64,000 nt of DNA from Rhizobium sullae (lineage in GTDB: Bacteria; Pseudomonadota; Alphaproteobacteria; Rhizobiales; Rhizobiaceae), in assembly GCF_025200715.1 (NCBI RefSeq), contig NZ_CP104144.1, positions 186,001 to 250,000 of the forward strand. Direction: 5' to 3'. The notes below the pieces were generated by a model, which saw only the letters and a list, made by a program, of their open reading frames with translations, was not told the DNA's origin and did no database searches. This document shows, in pieces, positions 3,417 to 28,323 of the stretch (the first letter of the stretch is position 1; every line of letters starts with the position of its first letter). Both the position numbers and the translations under genes were made by a program.

Positions 3417-4960
3417 CACGCATGGTTCCTTCTGATTTTATGCCCCTCTGCGGAAGCGGCGACAATGGCCTCCTCGGTCGCCTCCTTGCGGTCGAGGATG
3501 GTGACGAGACGTCCGTTGCTCATCACTGCGATGCGGTCTGAGAGCGCCATGACTTCTTCGAGATCGGAGGTCGAAAACAGGATTGCGAGCCCTTCGCTGG
3601 CGAGCCGCCGCATGGTGCGGAAGACATCGGCTTTGGCACCGACGTCAATGCCGCGCGACGGTTCGTCCATTAACAGGACTTTCGGACCTGTCATCAGCGC
3701 CTTGCCGATGACGACCTTCTGCTGGTTGCCGCCGGACATGGAGGTGACTTCGAAATCGGGATTCCTGGCCTTGATCGAAAGATTGCGGATCGCATCCGCA
3801 ATCGCTTTCTTCTCGCGGCCGAGATCGATGTGGAAGCCGGCTTTGACGAACTGGCCGAGGCTCGCCATGGTCAGGTTGTCGGCGATCGACATGGACTGCA
3901 CCAGGCCCTCGCGCTGCCGGTCCTCGGGGATCAGGGCCAGTCCAAGCTGGATGCGGCGGGTCGTATCCCGCGCCTTCAGCTCCTTGCCGTTGAGAAAGAT
4001 CCTGCCGGTGCAGTGTTCGTGGCGGCCCATGATGCATTCGAAGAACTCGCTGCGGCCGGCCCCCATCAGGCCGTAGATGCCGAGGATCTCGCCTTTCCTA
4101 ATTGAAAGCGATACGTGATCGACGGCAAAGCCGCCATGCAGGCGCGGCAGGCAGATCTCCTCGGTGCGGAGCACTTCTTCGCCTACGGTGTGGCCGATCT
4201 GCTTGGCGAAATCCTTGGCATCCGAGCCGATCATCGAGTGTACGATCCAGCGCGTATCGATATCCTTCACCATGGCGTGCCCGGTGATCTGACCGTCCTT
4301 TAGCACCGTGATGTAGTCGCCGATGGTCATCAGCTCCTCAAGCCGGTGCGAAATGTAGACGATCGCCACCCCTTGCGCCTTGAGCTCCCGGATCACCCGA
4401 AACAGGATGTCGACTTCGGCGGCGCTCAAGGCCGAGGTCGGCTCGTCCATGATCAGGATACGGGTATTGAGCGAGACGGCGCGGGCGATCTCGACGAGTT
4501 GCTGCTGGCCGATCGGCAAGTCTTCCGCAAGCGTGCCGGCGGAGATGCCGGCTTCGACCCGGTTCAGGAATTCATTGGCTTTTGCGACCTGCGCCCGATG
4601 GTCGATACCGCGGATGCCGCGCGTCAGTTCGCGGGTCGCAAAGATGTTCTCGGCGACCGACAGGTTGCCGAACAGGTTGAGCTCCTGGAAGACGATGCCG
4701 ATGCCGTGGCGTACGGCATCTGCCGGGCTGTCGAGATGGATGCGCTCCCCGTCCATCCAGATTTCGCCGAGGGTTGGACGCTCGACACCGGCGATGATGC
4801 GCATCAGGGTCGATTTGCCAGCGCCATTCTCGCCAACCAGCACGTTTACTGCACCGCGACGAAGCTTCAAATTCGCCTTCTTGACGGCGACAATGCCGGA
4901 ATAGGCTTTGGTGATGTCGCGAAGCTCAAGAATGACATCGCCATCGTCGATTTCGGACAT
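3416..4960 (-). CDS. sugar ABC transporter ATPase, two fused ATP-binding domains (RbsA-like)
   Basis: This 514-residue protein carries two nucleotide-binding domains. The first has Walker A GENGAGKST near residue 43, a signature-like IGQQQLVEIARA and Walker B ILIMDEPTS. The second has the degenerate P-loop GLMGAGRSE and the signature MSGGNQQKVVIGKAL, with VLLMDEPSRGID. This double layout with a degenerate second P-loop is typical of RbsA/MglA/XylG ATPases. It powers the importer together with the permease directly downstream. It starts only three bases after the DUF2291 gene and belongs to the same leftward operon that begins at apnO. Confidence 0.95.
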   Translation of the reverse strand: MSEIDDGDVILELRDITKAYSGIVAVKKANLKLRRGAVNVLVGENGAGKSTLMRIIAGVERPTLGEIWMDGERIHLDSPADAVRHGIGIVFQELNLFGNLSVAENIFATRELTRGIRGIDHRAQVAKANEFLNRVEAGISAGTLAEDLPIGQQQLVEIARAVSLNTRILIMDEPTSALSAAEVDILFRVIRELKAQGVAIVYISHRLEELMTIGDYITVLKDGQITGHAMVKDIDTRWIVHSMIGSDAKDFAKQIGHTVGEEVLRTEEICLPRLHGGFAVDHVSLSIRKGEILGIYGLMGAGRSEFFECIMGRHEHCTGRIFLNGKELKARDTTRRIQLGLALIPEDRQREGLVQSMSIADNLTMASLGQFVKAGFHIDLGREKKAIADAIRNLSIKARNPDFEVTSMSGGNQQKVVIGKALMTGPKVLLMDEPSRGIDVGAKADVFRTMRRLASEGLAILFSTSDLEEVMALSDRIAVMSNGRLVTILDRKEATEEAIVAASAEGHKIRRNHA

Positions 4961-4963
4961 TGC

Positions 4964-5599
4964 TCAGCTCCCGATGGTGATTGTAGCAGGCACGAACTGC
5001 GGCAGTTGACCGCCGGTGGGCAGCGGATAGGCGCCGACGGCGGCGAGTTTTCTTCCCGTCAGGCCCTGGCGCGGCAGTTTATCGAGCAAGGTACTGTTGA
5101 CATGGGTGTTGAACGATTTTCCGTATTGCGCCCATTCGATCTGGTTCTTGAACTCGTTGAAATTTACGAAATTCAGGCTGTCACGCAGCGCAGTGCCGCG
5201 GATCGCCGGACCGATCGACACTCGCACATCAGCCTTGGAATCGCCGTCGACATCGACGTCGACATAGGCAGCCCGCGATTTTGTCTCCTCGGCGACGATC
5301 ATGCCGTCCACCTTGGCGGCGAAGGTCCAGGGGGCATTGCCCTGCTTTTCCTTATGGCCATATTTCGCGGCTGCCGCGTCGAGGTCACTCGCTGAAAGGG
5401 CCGTGACATCCTGGAAGCTGCCGGCACGCTCGTTGAGATAGGGGATGACCTTTGAATCCCAGATTGCGGCCACCATGCTGTCTGGATCGAAGGCTTGCTT
5501 GGCGGCTTGCTGCTGCTCGTCAGCGGTTTTCACGAATTTGCAGGCGGACATCGCCAGCGCACAGGCAAGCAAAATTGTGGCGGCTCGCATCTGCAGCAT
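4964..5599 (-). CDS. DUF2291 family lipoprotein of the sugar transporter operon
   Basis: The product has about 211 residues, with a lipoprotein signal ending in the lipobox LAMSAC, so it should be anchored on the periplasmic side of a membrane. The rest matches the DUF2291 family, which I know as a frequent companion of ribose-type ABC operons. Its molecular role is not established. It lies between the ATPase and binding-protein genes, so an accessory role in sugar capture or transporter assembly is the natural guess. I chose the ATG at 5599, which has GGAG eight bases upstream. A GTG at 5608 would only add three residues. Confidence 0.82.
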   Translation of the reverse strand: MLQMRAATILLACALAMSACKFVKTADEQQQAAKQAFDPDSMVAAIWDSKVIPYLNERAGSFQDVTALSASDLDAAAAKYGHKEKQGNAPWTFAAKVDGMIVAEETKSRAAYVDVDVDGDSKADVRVSIGPAIRGTALRDSLNFVNFNEFKNQIEWAQYGKSFNTHVNSTLLDKLPRQGLTGRKLAAVGAYPLPTGGQLPQFVPATITIGS

Positions 5600-5673
5600 T
5601 AAACGCACTCCATCAATGAATATTGCTGCAGGGCAGGGATGGTGTCCCTGCCCTGCGCATTGAGCCCGGGAGA

Positions 5674-6642
<969 letters not shown>

Positions 6643-6692
6643 CTATTTCCCATTAGGGCGGTGAGGGGACGGCTCGCCGTCCCCGGGGTCGA

Positions 6693-7520
6693 TCAAGTGA
6701 TGCGTCGAATGCTCTCGGCGATCTCCTGAGGTTCGAAGACGTTCTTCCAGTCGTCGCGCATGAGCGCGGGGATGCCGAACTCGATGGCCTTGTTGCAGGC
6801 GTCCGAAAACACGCCATCGACTTCCTTGAAAATGACGGCGCCCAGCACGTTCATGTGGCCTAGCAGGAAGTCGCGTGCGGCTTCTGCCGGAACGCCACGG
6901 GCGATGCACTCGTCCATCGCCTGGCGCATGACGACGAGCAGAGAGGCGCAGACGGTTTCCGAAAGACCGGGCTCCAGCATTGCCATCTGCTCGACGGTCA
7001 CGCGATGCGAGCGCATGACCGGCGCCCAGATGACCTTGGCTATCTCCTCGCCGAGCGCATAGGCGCTTTCCGGACCTTGCATGAGGGCGGAGACAATATG
7101 CTGCTTGGCGAAAAGACCGCCGAAATGGTCCTTCTTCGCCTTCATGTCGGTCTCGTCGTTGAAGATCGGCGGATGGCAGGGATGGGTGACGAAAAAGGTA
7201 AGGTCGTCCCGCCTTGGCAGGTGGCCAGCGAAAGGTGCGGCCGCATCGAGCGCAACGACCATCGTTCCCGGCTTCAGCTTGCCCGCGATACCGGCTGCGA
7301 CCTTTCCGATCGCCGTATCCGGAACTGCAAGAATGACAACCTCTGCAACATCGAGAGCTTCATCGGCTGAGACGCAATCGACACCGAGGTCGTTTTTCAG
7401 GCGTGCCTTGCCCGCGTCGCTAACCTCGACATGACGGACGCCAAAACGCGAATCTTTGAGATTCTTGGCAAGCCGGTATCCCATTTTTCCGCCGGCGCCG
7501 AAAAGGGCAATTACAGTCAT
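6693..7520 (-). CDS. apnO: D-apionate oxidoisomerase
   Basis: This 275-residue protein has an N-terminal NAD-binding fold with FGAGGKMGYRLAKNL at residues 7-21, followed by a helical 6-phosphogluconate-dehydrogenase-like C-terminal domain. The stretch FFVTHPCHPPIFNDE near residue 110 is characteristic of this subfamily. ApnO converts D-apionate to 3-oxo-isoapionate, the step between ApnL and OiaK. It is the first gene of the leftward operon that continues through the transporter to apsD and apnL. An operator-like site lies about 30-60 bases upstream of its start. The context makes the assignment firm. Confidence 0.88.
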   Translation of the reverse strand: MTVIALFGAGGKMGYRLAKNLKDSRFGVRHVEVSDAGKARLKNDLGVDCVSADEALDVAEVVILAVPDTAIGKVAAGIAGKLKPGTMVVALDAAAPFAGHLPRRDDLTFFVTHPCHPPIFNDETDMKAKKDHFGGLFAKQHIVSALMQGPESAYALGEEIAKVIWAPVMRSHRVTVEQMAMLEPGLSETVCASLLVVMRQAMDECIARGVPAEAARDFLLGHMNVLGAVIFKEVDGVFSDACNKAIEFGIPALMRDDWKNVFEPQEIAESIRRIT

Positions 7521-21218: not shown

Positions 21219-21425
21219 CTAGTGCTTTGCCGAATGCTGCTTGGCAATCGTGAGAATATAGTCATCAGCGATATCGGCGATCGCCATGGCGATCTCCGCT
21301 GGTGTAAACTCAACCAGCCTCTCGCTGAAAATGATCTGGTGAACGGCTTCTTCGATCTTCTGCCGGCAGGCAAAAAGACGATCGGCATGATTGACCTGTA
21401 TAAAAGGTAACTCCATGGCACTCAT
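21219..21425 (-). CDS. small hypothetical protein
   Basis: This possible 68-residue protein begins MSAMELPFIQVNHADRLFAC. It has an amphipathic helical middle (ADRLFACRQKIEEAVHQII) and ends with FTPAEIAMAIADIADDYILT. The last part resembles short proteins I have seen in rhizobial plasmids whose members contain an 'xPxEVAxAIxxLA' stretch. No function is known. A longer version could begin at 21506. There is no clear ribosome binding site, so the call rests on protein-like composition. Confidence 0.45.
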   Translation of the reverse strand: MSAMELPFIQVNHADRLFACRQKIEEAVHQIIFSERLVEFTPAEIAMAIADIADDYILTIAKQHSAKH

Positions 21426-21859
21426 AGCTCCGATCTTTTGGCGGCAGTCATTGCACGCCTTGTAGCTGGACATTAACGATACAGTGCTTGCTATGTGTCG
21501 ACGCATCGGTTGGCGATGACGAAACCGTCAATAACTTCATCCAATTGCCTCGACTGAGCAGCAGGATAAGCTGACGCAACGGCTGGTCGCGCGTCGGCCG
21601 TTGGCCGCAACGCTCCAAACATTGACGCTGGAAACATAGTTGCAAAAGCCGAGTTCGTGCGTGAAATCGGCGTGACACAATCTTAAATAGCATGCAGTAT
21701 TGTTGCGCGTAGAAATAAAGCCATCCTGAGACCTGCCGCGCGCAATTATCTCGGCAGCCCGATATCGGGACTGAAACAGGCAACACTTGCAGCAAAAAAC
21801 ATAACAAAGATCTGTGAAGGAAAAGCAAGAATATCGTGCAAAATAAATTCGCCTTTAGT

Positions 21860-21879
21860 TGCATTTTCCCCGAAATGCA
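21860..21879. promoter_or_regulatory. inverted repeat upstream of the XRE regulator gene
   Basis: TGCATTT (21860-21866) and AAATGCA (21873-21879) form a perfect inverted repeat with a six-base spacer. Two further ATGCAC copies follow before the start at 21915. The surroundings are more AT-rich than the coding regions. I infer a promoter-operator region for the operon that follows, perhaps bound by the XRE protein itself. Confidence 0.45.
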
Positions 21880-21914
21880 CCATGATGCACTTAACATGCG
21901 CCATGAGGGGCACC

Positions 21915-22352
21915 ATGAAGGCCAAATCACCAAATGCCATTGATGTATATGTGGGTGGCCGCGTCCGGCTCCGGCGCAAGGTTCTTGGCTTGAGCCAAGG
22001 TAGTTTAGCGGAAGCCTTGGGTATTACGTTTCAGCAGATACAAAAATACGAGAAAGGCGCGAACCGAATAGGTGCCAGCAGACTCCAGCGGATAGCGGAG
22101 ATTCTTTGTGTCCCCGTCGGTTTCTTTTTCGAGAACGATGCGGCCGTCTCAGCCGATATCGACGCAAGGCGTGAGACGAATGAGGTCGCGCTGTTCATAA
22201 CGTCGAAGGAAGGTCTGGCGCTCAGCAAGGCATTCCTTGCGATCGAGGACGCTAACATCCGTCAAAAATTGCTTGCCCTTACCAGAAGCCTTGGCTCTAC
22301 AAGCGTGGTCGAGAACGATGGCGACGGTTCCAATCAGGTAGAAACCACGTGA
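21915..22352 (+). CDS. XRE-family regulator (PraR-like)
   Basis: This 145-residue protein has an N-terminal helix-turn-helix. RVRLRRKVLGLSQGSLAEAL and GITFQQIQKYEKGANRIGAS at residues 12-55 are nearly diagnostic of the rhizobial PraR/PhrR group. The C-terminal half is helical and unassigned. The ATG at 21915 is preceded by GAGGGG. It is followed after nine bases by the BTAD/TPR regulator and then by the peptide genes, so it probably controls this operon. PraR itself acts in quorum sensing and attachment, but whether this paralogue does so cannot be seen. Confidence 0.85.
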   Translation: MKAKSPNAIDVYVGGRVRLRRKVLGLSQGSLAEALGITFQQIQKYEKGANRIGASRLQRIAEILCVPVGFFFENDAAVSADIDARRETNEVALFITSKEGLALSKAFLAIEDANIRQKLLALTRSLGSTSVVENDGDGSNQVETT

Positions 22353-22361
22353 GGATAGTCT

Positions 22362-24206
22362 GTGCTGTATCTGCAGACATTTGGTGATCTGCGACTGACC
22401 GACGCGAACGGCAATTCTATTCGATACCCGGCCAAGGGCCTGGTGATGGTCGCCTATTTGTTCACCCGAAAGACCCGCGAGCTAAGCCGTCACGAGGTGG
22501 CGGAGTTTCTGTGGACCGAAGCAGAAACTGAGCTGTCGGGGCTTAATCTGCGCAAGCTGATTTCACGCATTCGCCAGATAGACGAGAGCACGAACGAGCC
22601 GCTACTTCATATCGCGGCCAGTTCGATCCGGCTCCGCACGGAGGCCGTTGCCGTCGATCTCCAGGCTCTCGATAGCGCCAAGCCTCCGTTGGAACAATTG
22701 AGGGCGATCAGCGGGCTGCTTCAGCGGGATTTTATGGGAAGCGTAAAGCCTGCAACCAGATCGATCGACAGCTGGATTACGGGAGAGCGCCGGAACCATC
22801 GATTGAAGCTACGGGAAGCGCTCTTCGGCGCCTTGCCGCATGCGCAAAGCAACGACGACTTCCGGGCGATATCCGGCGCCGGCCTTTATCTCCTTGAGAA
22901 GGACCCGGACGATGAAGAAATCAGGGAAATGCTTCGCCGGCTACCTGGAGCCAGTTTGGCTGACGGGGACAGGAGTGAAAGGGTAAGCGGGCCAAAGATC
23001 CACGCTCTGCCATTGAGCGAGCAAGACAAGCTTGTTCGCTTGGAGCCTGGCAAATCTTCGCCTTCGGTCCTTCCTCGAGTTGTGCTGCTTCCGCCAATCC
23101 CCCAGGGGCATGTCGCCGGGCTCGCCATTGCCAACGCCTTGATCGAAGACGTCACCATCGAGCTTTGCGCGCTTCGCAATATCTCTATCGTCGCACCGCA
23201 CACGGCCGAGCAGATTCGCCGCGATTCCGACAAAGCCCAGGTCGTTGCCCGGCATTCGATCTCCTATCTCCTTGAAACGCGGCTTTCGGTTGAAGGCCTT
23301 TATGCCCAGCTTATCTATTTTCCCACCGACGAGGTCATCTGGGCAACGCGCTTTACGATGACATCGGATGCCTTGCCGACGCAAAGGCGGCTCATCGCGC
23401 AGCGGCTGACCTCTTCGCTGGTGCAAGAGCTGGCGAAGAACGAGCAGGCCAGATTGAACATTGAGGCCGATCCGCAGGCATACCATTCCTATCTCGTCGG
23501 CGCGAGCTTGGTGGGCAAGCTGACGTTGCCTCATATCCGCAGGGCACGCACGGCGTTCAAGGAGGCCCTTCGGCACAATCCCAACTTCTCGCCCGCATTT
23601 GCTGCTCTTGCCCGCACTTATACGAGTGAGTGGCTCGTGACCGCGCAGGGGAACGAGGAACTGCTGCGTCTGGCGGAAACGAATGCGGTCAAGGCCATAG
23701 AGGGGGATTCGGAATTCGCCGGCGGACATCGAGAATTGGGGGTCGCCAAGCTTTATCTCGGTGACGTTGACCACAGCGTTTCCGCCCTCAGCTTGGCGGA
23801 GGAATTGAGCCCCCATTTTGCCGACGTCATATACAGCCACGCTGACACGCTCGTGCACGCGTCGCGTCCTGATGAGGCATTGTCGAAAATAACGAGAGCG
23901 ATCTCGCTCAATCCTATATCGCCCGATGCCTACTTTTGGTGCGCAGCGGGAGCGAGTTACTTCCTTGAGCAATATGAAGACGCAATCGGTTATGTGGAGC
24001 TGATGAAGGACAAAGCGCCGGCTCACCGGATTGCTGCGGCAAGCTGTGCGATGATGGGTGACCGAAAGCGAGCGCAGTTTTACCGACAGCGTGCAGCAAT
24101 GCTGAATCCTGTGTTTGACGTGGAGAAATGGCTCTCTGTCGTTCCTTTCAAGGAACAGTGGCAGAAGGACCTTTATCGTGAAGGCCTTTTGAAAGCTGGA
24201 TTTTAG
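22362..24206 (+). CDS. BTAD/SARP-like transcriptional regulator with TPR repeats
   Basis: This 614-residue protein starts at a GTG with GAGGA upstream. Residues 1-95 resemble the SARP-type winged helix (LQTFGDLRLTDANG, then ELSRHEVAEFLWTEAE). Residues 100-205 look like a bacterial transcriptional activator domain. Residues 235-345 match the TolB-like domain found in adenylate cyclase/TPR regulators (LIEDVTIELCALRNISIVA and VEGLYAQLIYFPTDEVIWATRF). From about 385 to 595 there are tetratricopeptide helices. Such proteins activate secondary-metabolite and bacteriocin operons. It ends 24 bases before the candidate precursor gene, so local control of that cluster is likely. Confidence 0.8.
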   Translation: MLYLQTFGDLRLTDANGNSIRYPAKGLVMVAYLFTRKTRELSRHEVAEFLWTEAETELSGLNLRKLISRIRQIDESTNEPLLHIAASSIRLRTEAVAVDLQALDSAKPPLEQLRAISGLLQRDFMGSVKPATRSIDSWITGERRNHRLKLREALFGALPHAQSNDDFRAISGAGLYLLEKDPDDEEIREMLRRLPGASLADGDRSERVSGPKIHALPLSEQDKLVRLEPGKSSPSVLPRVVLLPPIPQGHVAGLAIANALIEDVTIELCALRNISIVAPHTAEQIRRDSDKAQVVARHSISYLLETRLSVEGLYAQLIYFPTDEVIWATRFTMTSDALPTQRRLIAQRLTSSLVQELAKNEQARLNIEADPQAYHSYLVGASLVGKLTLPHIRRARTAFKEALRHNPNFSPAFAALARTYTSEWLVTAQGNEELLRLAETNAVKAIEGDSEFAGGHRELGVAKLYLGDVDHSVSALSLAEELSPHFADVIYSHADTLVHASRPDEALSKITRAISLNPISPDAYFWCAAGASYFLEQYEDAIGYVELMKDKAPAHRIAAASCAMMGDRKRAQFYRQRAAMLNPVFDVEKWLSVVPFKEQWQKDLYREGLLKAGF

Positions 24207-24230
24207 AAATAAACCTAAGGAGAAAAATTC

Positions 24231-24455
24231 ATGGAAATAACTGAAAAAGCTGTCGTTTTTGCTGTTACGGGAGAAGCGGATCTCTGGATTGCCGATCTCG
24301 ACAACGGCACGGTAAAGCGGCTCGGCGCGCCGACCGGCGAATTGGCGCAAGTTGCCGATCTGCGGAAGAATGGCGGAACCTTCGTCAAAAAGGTGGATTT
24401 TGCCATCGCCGTTTCGTCGGCGGCGGCAGTCTTTTCCGGTCACGTCGACGGTTGA
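24231..24455 (+). CDS. candidate precursor peptide of a YcaO/TfuA-modified RiPP
   Basis: This 74-residue peptide has a strong ribosome binding site (AAGGAG, nine bases upstream). It begins MEITEKAVVFAVTGEADLW and ends AVSSAAAVFSGHVDG. The first two thirds are charged, like a leader. The last third is small, hydrophobic and Ser/Ala/Val-rich, like a core. There is no cysteine, which argues against thiazole formation and leaves backbone thioamidation or Ser/Thr heterocycles. It sits directly before the YcaO and TfuA genes, the place of precursors in such clusters. Its TGA stop lies in the same reading frame as the YcaO gene. It could also be an accessory binding protein rather than the precursor. 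Confidence 0.6.
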   Translation: MEITEKAVVFAVTGEADLWIADLDNGTVKRLGAPTGELAQVADLRKNGGTFVKKVDFAIAVSSAAAVFSGHVDG

Positions 24456-24464
24456 GATGCTGCC

Positions 24465-25661
24465 CTGACAGCTTTTCAAGCCGTTTCACATTCCGATCGG
24501 GCCATCTCGCCGTCGGAGACGCTCACTCGCGTCGAGCCGTTTCTGGCTGATTTCGGCATTACCCGTGTCGCACGTCACACGGGTCTCGATCGCATCGGAA
24601 TACCGGTCTGGTGTGCCTATACGCCCAATGCGCGCTCGATCGTCGTCGCTCAAGGCAAGGGCCTGAGCGACGACGATGCGAAGGTGTCGGCCGTCATGGA
24701 GGGCTTGGAACGGGCCATTGCCGGCAATCCTTCCGTCGATACTGTCCAAACAAGCGCGCGTCGCCTTCAGGAATCCGGCTACAGATTCGAGAAGCTGAAC
24801 TGCCTCATCGGTCTCCACCAGAACGATATCGGCGACGACGAAGAGATTGAGTGGGCGCTTGGCAGGGAACTCCTGTCAGGGACGGAGATCTATGTCCCTT
24901 TCGAGGCCGCGGTCCTCGACCGGACACGCGATTGCCGCTTCTGGATGTCTTCCGATGGCTTGGCGTCCGGAAACACGCTCAAGGAGGCAATGCTACATGG
25001 CATTCTCGAGCGCATCGAACGGGACGCCCATGTCCTTTGGCAGGTAGGCAATGACAGAGACCGCTATTTGCGCTGCATCGATCCACGCGGTTTCCAGGAT
25101 CCTGCGCTGGATCAGTTGATCGAAAAGATCGAAACGGCCGGGCTGGTACTTCGGCTTTTTGACATGACGAGCGATATCGCCATTCCATGTTTCACCGCAA
25201 TTTTGGGGCCCCATGGTGTCCGTGACGACGCAAATGTCCGGTTTGTCGAAGTGACCGCCGGAAGCGGGGCTCACCCATCGCCCGTTCGGGCAGCCATACG
25301 GGCTCTAACAGAAGCGGCTCAATCCCGATTGACCTATATCAGCGGTGCACGGGACGACATATCGCCCGAGACGTTTCTTAAACCTCTCCCATTGCAGACG
25401 CGCCGTGCCTTCCAGGCTGTTCCGGCGACGCCGGCAACGATCGCGCCAACGCAGCCGCAATCTCTGTCTCAACATCTCGACCACACGCTGAATGCCTTGC
25501 GGGAAAGGCAGATAGATAACGTCATTGTCTTGGCGCTCAGCGACCCTGCGCTTCCCTTCAGCGTCGCGAAAATCTTCATCCCCGCGCTTGAAAATCCGGA
25601 CGGTGGCGGCCGCGCACGCCGCTTTGGAAACCGGGCAGTTTCAAAGGCAATCATGTCATGA
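24465..25661 (+). CDS. YcaO-domain peptide-modifying enzyme
   Basis: YcaO enzymes use ATP to activate peptide backbone amides. The motif SAVMEGLER at residues 75-83 is the family's SxxxExxER ATP/magnesium motif, preceded by GLDRIGIPVWCAYTPNARS and VAQGKGLSDDDAK, and followed by GNTLKEAMLHGILERIERDA. There is no PxPxP C-terminus, as seen in the non-azoline branches. The start is uncertain. Conserved sequence extends back to about 24465, but no ATG, GTG or TTG lies in frame between the precursor stop (24453) and a GTG at 24684, which would remove essential residues. I set the start at a CTG. Readthrough of the precursor TGA is the alternative. The stop overlaps tfuA. Confidence 0.8.
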   Translation: MTAFQAVSHSDRAISPSETLTRVEPFLADFGITRVARHTGLDRIGIPVWCAYTPNARSIVVAQGKGLSDDDAKVSAVMEGLERAIAGNPSVDTVQTSARRLQESGYRFEKLNCLIGLHQNDIGDDEEIEWALGRELLSGTEIYVPFEAAVLDRTRDCRFWMSSDGLASGNTLKEAMLHGILERIERDAHVLWQVGNDRDRYLRCIDPRGFQDPALDQLIEKIETAGLVLRLFDMTSDIAIPCFTAILGPHGVRDDANVRFVEVTAGSGAHPSPVRAAIRALTEAAQSRLTYISGARDDISPETFLKPLPLQTRRAFQAVPATPATIAPTQPQSLSQHLDHTLNALRERQIDNVIVLALSDPALPFSVAKIFIPALENPDGGGRARRFGNRAVSKAIMS

Positions 25662-26356
25662 AGATCGTCTTCGTCGGTCCGAGCCTTCCAGACGCCGCAT
25701 CCTTCGCTGGAGATGGGGTCCTCATCTACCCCCCGGCAGTTCAGGGCGATGTTCTTGCGGCCGTGCGTCGTGGTGCCGGCGTCATTGGAATAATTGATGG
25801 CGGCTTCGAGTATACGGCGCCGGTATGGCATAAGGAGATACTTTCAGCGCTTTCACAGAACGTGGCCGTGCTGGGTGCGGCCAGTATGGGAGCACTGCGC
25901 GCTGCGGAATGCCAAGTCTTTGGAATGATTGGCAGCGGCCGTATCTTCCATGAATACGAAAGCGGCGCGACTGTCGACGATGCGGATGTCGCTCTGCTGC
26001 ACGGCCCCATGGAATACGGATACAAGCCTTTGACCGTGCCGCTCGTCAATGTCAGGGCAACCCTCGATAAACTTGAAAACCAGAAGCAGCTTGCACACGA
26101 TCTGCGGGTAAGACTCGAGGACAGCGCAGCTCGAATCTTCTTCAAGGAGCGGACATGGCAATCGCTAGTCGCCCATTGTGATGCAGTCAGCCCGCAGGAG
26201 CGGCGGGATCTCATTTCACTGCTTGTCTCAAATGCTGTCGATCAAAAACGAATGGACGCTCTGGCTCTTCTCGAAGCCGTTCGCGCGACGAGCAACGCCG
26301 ATATGCATCGAGAGAATTCCTGGCAGATGAACGAGACATTTGTTTCGCTAGTTTAA
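25658..26356 (+). CDS. TfuA-like protein
   Basis: This 232-residue protein has the TfuA family pattern. IVFVGPSLPDA is at the start, followed by PPAVQGDVLAAVRRGAGVIGIIDGGFE, VWHKEILSALSQNVAVLGAASMGALRAAEC near residues 60-90, and DDADVALLHGP near residue 107. TfuA proteins work with YcaO, as in trifolitoxin production and in thioamidation, where they are thought to help deliver sulphur. The ATG overlaps the ycaO stop (ATGA), which indicates a tightly coupled pair. This partner makes thioamide formation the leading hypothesis for the cluster. Confidence 0.9.
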   Translation: MKIVFVGPSLPDAASFAGDGVLIYPPAVQGDVLAAVRRGAGVIGIIDGGFEYTAPVWHKEILSALSQNVAVLGAASMGALRAAECQVFGMIGSGRIFHEYESGATVDDADVALLHGPMEYGYKPLTVPLVNVRATLDKLENQKQLAHDLRVRLEDSAARIFFKERTWQSLVAHCDAVSPQERRDLISLLVSNAVDQKRMDALALLEAVRATSNADMHRENSWQMNETFVSLV

Positions 26357-26461
26357 GAGGAACACAGCATCAAATCAATTCAGGCACTAGTTGTGTCACG
26401 CGCTTTTCACGGGCTCTTTGCAGCTGTCCCCAATATGTTCGCCTTGGAATGGGAGACCGAG

Positions 26462-26719
26462 ATGAGCATCACCTCTGCAAGCAAACCTGCCGGCTTTAGC
26501 CACAGCGCAAGATCCGTTGATGAATTGGATGAGCTTATCGGGATCGCCCGAATGATCACGTACGCAAAATCCGCGGCACAAGATATCGAGCTCGTCAGTG
26601 CGACGCATTGGCTCGAGCTTGCACTGAAGGCAATCGCTCACGAGATCGGGGATGCTGCGGACACAGGATTGCTCGATCTGACACTGTCCACGGACGCTAT
26701 AAATCTGCGAAAGCATTAA
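26462..26719 (+). CDS. small helical protein downstream of tfuA
   Basis: This 85-residue protein begins MSITSASKPAGFSHSARSVD and is largely helical (DELDELIGIARMITYAKSAAQDI, then THWLELALKAIAHEI). It has no signal peptide or membrane segment. The ATG at 26462 has GGGAG about ten bases upstream. It lies 105 bases after tfuA on the same strand and could be part of the peptide operon, for example as an accessory or immunity protein, but nothing in its sequence shows a function. I do not recognise the family. Confidence 0.5.
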   Translation: MSITSASKPAGFSHSARSVDELDELIGIARMITYAKSAAQDIELVSATHWLELALKAIAHEIGDAADTGLLDLTLSTDAINLRKH

Positions 26720-27876: not shown

Positions 27877-28323
27877 TTAGCCAGGCCGTTTGAGATAAAC
27901 GCGAAGCCTCCTCGACGGCTCATATCCATTGCCCGTGTAGTAATTCGCGATGCGGCCGCTCTGCTGGGATACAAGCCAGATCTGCAGATAACCCATATTC
28001 CTGGCTTCGATTTCGAGGCGGCTCAGCAGGCTCGACCCAATTCCTTTTCTCTGATGGTTGGGTAATACGGCTATCTCAGCAAGATGCAGGCCGCGGCCGA
28101 TCACTGATGTGTGGGGAAGGGCAAAGGCAAAGCCGATAGGCTCCTCGGCCTCGAATGCTGCCAAGCCAAGGCAGCCGGGCGTTGTTGCGAGTTCATTCAG
28201 ACGCGAGGCCGCGTTCTCGAGCGACCATTCTTCATGCCAAGGAGGCTCGGCGTAAGCCTGCACGATAATCACCGCACTGCGGGCTGCCTCGACAGGGGTT
28301 ATTCTTCTGAATTCGATTGGCAT
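27877..28323 (-). CDS. GNAT-family N-acetyltransferase
   Basis: This 148-residue protein has the GNAT fold. The acetyl-CoA pyrophosphate loop is HQRKGIGSSLLSRLEIEA near residues 90-107 (Q/RxxGxG/A), preceded by the beta-4 strand LHLAEIAVLPN and followed by a C-terminal beta strand. It should transfer an acetyl group from acetyl-CoA to an unknown amine in the cytosol. It stands alone, without operon partners. The N-terminus begins MPIEFRRITPVEA at 28323. Confidence 0.85.
   Translation of the reverse strand: MPIEFRRITPVEAARSAVIIVQAYAEPPWHEEWSLENAASRLNELATTPGCLGLAAFEAEEPIGFAFALPHTSVIGRGLHLAEIAVLPNHQRKGIGSSLLSRLEIEARNMGYLQIWLVSQQSGRIANYYTGNGYEPSRRLRVYLKRPG

Follow-up and report, generated by a model that had tools for sequence, protein, structure and literature searches.

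A probable YcaO-TfuA peptide-modification operon in Rhizobium sullae, with a precursor peptide paired to a BTAD/TPR regulator

The window analysed here is a stretch of 64,000 nucleotides of Rhizobium sullae (assembly GCF_025200715.1, contig NZ_CP104144.1, positions 186,001 to 250,000), and the subject of this work is a group of six genes within it, in which a 74-residue peptide is followed by a YcaO and a TfuA gene. We consider it likely that this locus is a system for a ribosomally synthesized and post-translationally modified peptide (RiPP), the peptide being the precursor and YcaO, with TfuA, modifying the backbone of its core, most likely by thioamidation. The peptide would have a leader that folds and, at its C-terminus, a single core of approximately FSGHVDG, on which YcaO and TfuA would install the backbone change, most likely a thioamide. 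General cell peptidases would then release the product, as proposed for thiovarsolin. The BTAD/TPR regulator encoded directly upstream, the regular partner of the precursor, would control precursor expression, and one enzyme pair may be able to serve several such regulator-precursor cassettes. The features, in window positions, are as follows.

21882..22352, + strand: XRE-type regulator, 156 residues (HTH_3, 6.6e-11; most related loci have a relative in this position).
22362..24206, + strand: BTAD/TPR regulator, 614 residues, GTG start (several TPR Pfam models; PF03704 in homologues; model; TPR structural matches).
24231..24455, + strand: probable RiPP precursor, 74 residues, leader approximately residues 1-67 (183-member family; purifying selection; model).
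24432..24452, + strand: predicted core FSGHVDG, residues 68-74 (unit repeated in P0088/P0090/P0104, L198, L225 and L226; Gly70 conserved).
24465..24467, + strand: probable CTG start codon of YcaO (CTG in 51/51 loci with no standard start nearby; homology from about 24492).
24465..25661, + strand: YcaO, 398 residues (PF02624, 4.4e-69; MJ1094, 7.7e-31).
25658..26356, + strand: TfuA, 232 residues (PF07812, 9.8e-42; 6xp8, 5.3e-29).
26462..26719, + strand: 85-residue protein (most of the closer relatives have it next to YcaO/TfuA).

An earlier note on this DNA, made from its letters, had described six genes on one strand (XRE, BTAD/TPR, 74-residue peptide, YcaO, TfuA and 85-residue protein), and the coordinates of the open reading frames (ORFs) agree with it. 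The spacing is also as it had given: 9, 24 and 9 nt, then a 4-nt overlap, then 105 nt, the "about 9" bases between peptide and YcaO matching if YcaO begins at the CTG at 24465. The YcaO motif SxxxExxER is indeed present, within the stretch that aligns to MJ1094. The note's central proposal, a YcaO/TfuA RiPP cluster, is well supported by the evidence given below, namely the co-occurrence of peptide and YcaO across genomes and the repeated-core precursors of relatives.

Compared with its counterpart in R. mongolense over 70 codons, the peptide gene has a nonsynonymous divergence (dN) of 0.092 and a synonymous divergence (dS) of 0.96, and a profile search finds 183 homologous proteins. Comparison thus shows the peptide to be a real gene. 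The peptide itself matches no Pfam family at E<=1. Among the matches listed (120 of the 183), the homologues are named "hypothetical" or "uncharacterized" and have no Pfam domain, and we think it probable that they make up an unannotated precursor family of YcaO-TfuA RiPPs to which the window peptide belongs. The model of the peptide (mean predicted local distance difference test, pLDDT, 84.8) shows three strands with one helix, and residues 64-68 form a further short helix; it gives no significant match against the PDB (best E 0.69). Of 85 aligned homologues, 83 have Gly70.

The window peptide is predicted to carry a single C-terminal core. Its approximate limits come from alignment with relatives, in which a similar leader precedes a short core present in 2 to 8 copies. 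In P0088, P0090 and P0104 there are three 7-residue C-terminal units, FAGKFEG-FSGKFDT-FSGKFDT. L225 has four GGFFE units, with a 21-bp period in the DNA (4.1 copies), and L226 has two EAFSGQFD units, to which can be added arrays counted by eye: three GLHE units in L198, three loose units in L224, and four units in a precursor of L183. Longer arrays are found in L231 (6558-7110, + strand; six 20-residue units, 60-bp DNA period, 5.3 copies), in L230 (6063-6822, - strand; seven units that match a pattern, plus a variant eighth unit seen by eye) and in the second precursor of L182 (5676-6153, - strand; six 13-residue units, 39-bp DNA period, 5.5 copies). Two tandem precursors occur in L194, and also in L181-L184. 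Several of the cores contain Ser. It is worth adding that the long precursors of L230, L231 and L182 have a short leader and units such as RSDAASH or RSDPS(E/D)RAFSF.

The peptide and YcaO follow one another across genomes. Peptide counts here are lower bounds, with at most 40, 20 and 15 candidates scored per genome in the genus, family and order samples. In the genus sample the peptide is present in 138 of 148 genomes. YcaO is found at E<=1e-60 in 141, of which 138 score 1.1e-102 or better and three (G025, G075, G121) have a distant YcaO only, near 1e-71. The 138 genomes with a close YcaO are exactly the 138 with the peptide. TfuA is found at E<=1e-20 in 142 of the 148, and the six genomes with no TfuA also have neither peptide nor YcaO; G091 has a distant TfuA only (1.6e-33), and neither of the other two. 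The family sample has the peptide in 49 of 297 genomes and YcaO at E<=1e-40 in 71; the peptide is present in each of the 43 genomes where YcaO reaches E<=1e-99, and in six further peptide genomes a 39-43% identical YcaO lies less than 1 kb from it. In the order sample the peptide is found in 30 of 397 genomes, 21 of them outside the family, and in all 10 of those outside loci that were fetched, regulator, peptide, YcaO and TfuA stand together. Adjacency alone as the cause of co-occurrence is ruled out by genomes in which peptide and YcaO are unlinked.

In 22 further genomes of the family sample a weaker YcaO was found and no peptide was detected. Three of these (L187-L189) have a different ORF of 42-65 residues between regulator and YcaO, and the same kind of ORF fills that place in L190-L193, which are four Rhizobium genomes' second clusters with a YcaO. 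By eye (L193 and others) it ends in HA(V/L)(R/K)FR, and the YcaO there is about 37-40% identical. These sister clusters, L187-L193, probably hold another precursor class in the same architecture.

The link between the peptide and the BTAD/TPR regulator is tighter still. Among 218 loci, 188 of 189 peptide matches lie directly behind such a regulator, with a median gap of 25 nt; the sole exception is a weak peptide-like ORF (2.9e-06) in L142, at 5541-5868 on the - strand, with no regulator upstream. Among 100 YcaO loci, 90 have both peptide and regulator, 10 have neither and none has one alone, a 28-residue regulator stub in L037 being left out of this count; both sets include the same genome reached twice. 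Given that the two genes adjoin, their joint loss may be a single event. Cassettes lying apart from YcaO (orphan loci) were picked by eye among the matches listed, and 19 were fetched. In all 19, nothing but regulator plus peptide recurs as a family in a constant position, and TfuA divergently adjoins the cassette in five. Three further regulator-peptide pairs with no YcaO are found in L196, L197 and L200. The 19 orphan regulators and that of L200 form one group (Shimodaira-Hasegawa-like approximate likelihood ratio test 98) in a regulator tree of 79 rows, made by a quick method with long branches flagged and a length filter that dropped L196 and L197. Since they form one group, the orphan cassettes appear to be an old paralogous channel and not debris. 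None of the genes that neighbour the 19 cassettes is a constantly placed dedicated protease or exporter; nine cassettes have a member of an ABC-ATPase-like family nearby, at scattered positions and on both strands. At the YcaO loci only the window's own genes were sought and no genome-wide exporter search was made, so that an exporter specific to relatives would be missed.

The XRE regulator behaves differently, in that it stays with YcaO when the peptide-regulator pair is lost. In seven Sinorhizobium/Ensifer genomes (L201-L205, L208, L209) the best TfuA adjoins an XRE gene, and BTAD/TPR regulator, peptide and YcaO are together. On the strength of these two arrangements the XRE gene seems to be tied to the enzymes rather than to the peptide. 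A partial XRE match is still upstream in L026, L027 and L031-L033, and the split of the operon is therefore not the simple move of one XRE gene. The earlier description of a cluster with its own double regulator may apply less to the XRE gene than to the BTAD/TPR gene, which goes with the peptide.

The enzymes bear on the chemistry. The best solved relative of YcaO is MJ1094 (6pe3; 7.7e-31), far ahead of the azoline-type YcaOs (8.1e-14 and weaker), and the closest solved relative of TfuA is the TfuA-domain protein 6xp8 (5.3e-29). MJ1094 is archaeal, and both it and 6xp8 belong to the thioamidation of a glycine of methanogen McrA. Of the features of the TfuA-YcaO RiPP class, the window has a PF02624 enzyme that aligns with MJ1094, a TfuA overlapping YcaO by 4 nt and, by comparison only, a precursor with leader and core. 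The same cluster could perform another chemistry, with an azoline, amidine or other backbone change in place of the thioamide. We regard this as rather unlikely, though it has support: the YcaOs of other RiPPs make such changes, with TruD, LynD and MusD among the solved relatives here; several cores contain Ser; TfuA is not adjacent at some loci (see below); and the window TfuA may fall in clade 2 of the scheme of PMC8120280. Apart from the lead of MJ1094, it is countered by the presence of TfuA elsewhere in every checked genome of the TfuA-less loci and by the gene content, none of the six genes being a dehydrogenase or an E1-like partner.

A number of observations weigh against the reading favoured here. 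The last 20 residues of the peptide are conserved to the end (dN 0.047, dS 0.66 against R. mongolense), unlike a typical variable core, and the C-terminus is not predicted to be disordered (pLDDT 88 for residues 61-70 and 79 for 71-74), unlike a loose core. The short array of L198 was not reported by a DNA repeat finder. For the McrA-thioglycine families of NCBIfam (TIGR03266 / NF033432), YcaO scores 195.5 bits against a cut-off of 365 and TfuA 174.1 bits against 235.2, both below the threshold, and TfuA proteins outside clade 1 are described as in need of experimental tests (PMC8120280). Finally, 13 of the 100 YcaO loci have no adjacent TfuA and 10 have no peptide. Of the 13, L029 is a 3.6-kb contig and was left out; the 12 genomes checked all have TfuA elsewhere. 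A genome-wide search for 10 of these loci together with L033 gave two or three TfuA-family matches in all 11 genomes, and the last two (G073, G133) have TfuA beside an orphan cassette. L037 retains fragments of TfuA. Homologous loci with no peptide, which the earlier note would have counted against the cluster, thus do exist; they are not a refutation, because all 10 genomes hold the peptide elsewhere (six of six, plus G017, G074, G133 and G136). G449, the genome of L037, also has another YcaO (49% identical), accompanied by a TfuA of its own; a peptide copy is found immediately upstream of this YcaO and may be served by that other pair.

Some of these points would also fit a different role for the peptide: instead of being a precursor, it could be a small folded protein that partners the BTAD/TPR regulator (or YcaO), with YcaO and TfuA acting on something else. 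The peptide is conserved over its whole length and predicted to fold, and it is linked more tightly to the regulator than to YcaO. We nevertheless find this improbable: it is only the C-terminal unit that is multiplied in relatives, and the genome sets of peptide and close YcaO are identical even where the two genes are unlinked.

The model of the BTAD/TPR regulator (mean pLDDT 83.9) has a winged-helix-like N-terminus, BTAD-like helices, a TolB-like part and a TPR superhelix. The BTAD label given previously is not borne out in the window protein itself, which has no PF03704 match at E<=1; three homologues of about 28-31% identity (L182, L190, L185) do match, at 8.8e-13 to 1e-8. The structural match lists are filled by generic TPR proteins and hold nothing informative on the N-terminal parts. 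Within region bounds drawn by hand, columns conserved at 90% or more number 55 of 249 in the TPR part, 9 of 95 in the helix-turn-helix (HTH) part, 4 of 120 in the BTAD part and 13 of 129 in the TolB-like part.

We tentatively propose that most rhizobia keep a signalling system in which the TPR regulator senses its cognate YcaO/TfuA-modified (probably thioamidated) peptide, as a Gram-negative counterpart of RRNPP, although we hold this to be possible rather than probable. Each regulator-precursor cassette would be one channel. Several channels would share one enzyme pair, possibly encoded at a distance from them, and their specificity would depend on the sequence of the core and its number of copies. 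The regulator may instead be an ordinary activator of its own operon that senses no peptide, to which we give an even chance. SARP/BTAD regulators are commonly pathway activators (cf. PMC7040171), TPR superhelices have many kinds of binding partner, and the structural matches found here are generic ones. By itself this reading does not account for the TPR part being better conserved than any other region, or for orphan precursors keeping their own regulator.

Because a matching regulator gene nearly always immediately precedes the peptide gene, the product may be a signal and not an ordinary antibiotic. More generally, the presence of the system in 138 of 148 genus genomes and the existence of regulator-precursor units apart from the enzymes speak more for a role in physiology or signalling than for one in antibiosis. 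That the product is a bacteriocin, a narrow-spectrum antibiotic of the kind of phazolicin or trifolitoxin, with regulators that only switch it on, is in our view unlikely. Both of those are rhizobial antibiotics with YcaO or TfuA in their clusters. SARP-type BTAD regulators often control antibiotic clusters (PMC7040171), and ABC transporters are common in the main Rhizobium/Agrobacterium/Corallococcus cluster families (PMC8120280), which leaves room for export. So wide a presence would be unusual for a toxin, however, and the core is conserved and not varied, no immunity gene or exporter is among the six genes, and orphan regulator-peptide pairs exist.

The start of YcaO deserves comment. Peptide and YcaO share a reading frame, divided by the TGA at 24453-24455, and no ATG, GTG or TTG lies in frame between this stop and 24684, where the first standard start (GTG) is found. 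Homology to MJ1094 starts at about 24492, which is residue 10 of a protein begun at 24465. In the stretch 9-26 codons ahead of a fixed residue, 49 of 100 YcaO loci contain a standard start and 51 contain no ATG, GTG or TTG; all 51 (27 groups at 90% identity) have a CTG 16-20 codons before the residue, and CTG makes up only 25% of the 163 Leu codons of the operon. Because of this constancy, and because homology precedes 24684, YcaO probably starts at the CTG at 24465, 9 nt past the peptide stop. Ordinary gene callers would shorten or miss such a gene. A nonsense mutation, a pseudogene or read-through (including selenocysteine) at the junction is out, relatives keeping the stop as frame and spacing vary. 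A few of these loci (L007, L008, L011, L012) have a TTG within the peptide gene, but at some 75 codons upstream it was judged too far.

As for the surroundings, the window belongs to a 7.6-Mb genome of four contigs. The closest named match of YcaO is Rhizobium sullae L005 (99.75%), and the region is present at 82-84% identity on six Rhizobium replicons of 2.25-2.54 Mb, whose records have no features annotated under the matching region. The 85-residue protein, scanned as a longer 108-residue form, has no Pfam (E<=1) or NCBIfam match. The operon is flanked on the - strand by a 95-residue ORF (21219-21506) and an acetyltransferase-like ORF named by eye (27877-28323), both recurring near some related loci. 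The genome encodes one more YcaO that is unrelated to this one (L002, G000:C1:3401903-3402889 with flanks); it has an 84-residue Cys/Gly/Ser-rich small ORF upstream and, by eye, flanking ORFs resembling an E1-like partner and a nitroreductase-type dehydrogenase, and is probably an azole-type RiPP cluster. In L067 (about 4588-7150) the match to YcaO is divided in two and that to the regulator is incomplete; this copy may be broken or misassembled.

Among known systems, thiovarsolin (var) of Streptomyces varsoviensis resembles the window in having YcaO and TfuA and a leader-core precursor with no specific protease (PMC6511847). Its thioamide has been shown, and its precursor has one to five imperfect core repeats (PMC6511847). 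It differs in holding heme-oxygenase, ATP-grasp, amidinotransferase and major facilitator superfamily (MFS) genes and in its leader and core, and the available part of that account mentions neither a BTAD/TPR regulator nor orphan regulator-precursor cassettes (PMC6511847). TfuA-YcaO clusters are abundant in Rhizobium: Malit et al. (2021) counted over 500 unique TfuA-related clusters there, a set that very likely includes the same gene clusters (PMC8120280). The Rhizobium precursors named are berninamycin-like and Nif11-like, not the window family, and the available part of the main text does not describe precursors paired with regulators, operons that are split or a multi-core series; their 797 peptide families may include the window precursor with no comment (PMC8120280). 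In the open-licence literature we found no account of the window precursor or of a BTAD/TPR-precursor pair in rhizobia, and the literature searched gave no product or role for Rhizobium TfuA-YcaO clusters. This analysis adds a defined precursor family with a predicted core, a partner regulator, and natural multi-core relatives in which the chemical change should give a stronger signal, by which rhizobial use of the TfuA/YcaO enzymes becomes a testable question.

The MJ1094/6xp8 system has the closest solved relatives of both window enzymes but acts on a large enzyme subunit, whereas the window cluster has a small precursor. The trifolitoxin cluster of Rhizobium, after which TfuA was named, shares the rhizobial host; trifolitoxin is reported from few strains, whereas the window cluster is in most genomes of the genus. 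Finally, TPR regulators encoded beside a small peptide gene share the arrangement of the window, and the TPR fold of RRNPP-type regulators is present in the window regulator (Pfam, model and structural matches). In comparison with such pairs, the window regulator has a putative BTAD-type DNA-binding domain, its peptide travels with modifying enzymes, and sensing is proposed.

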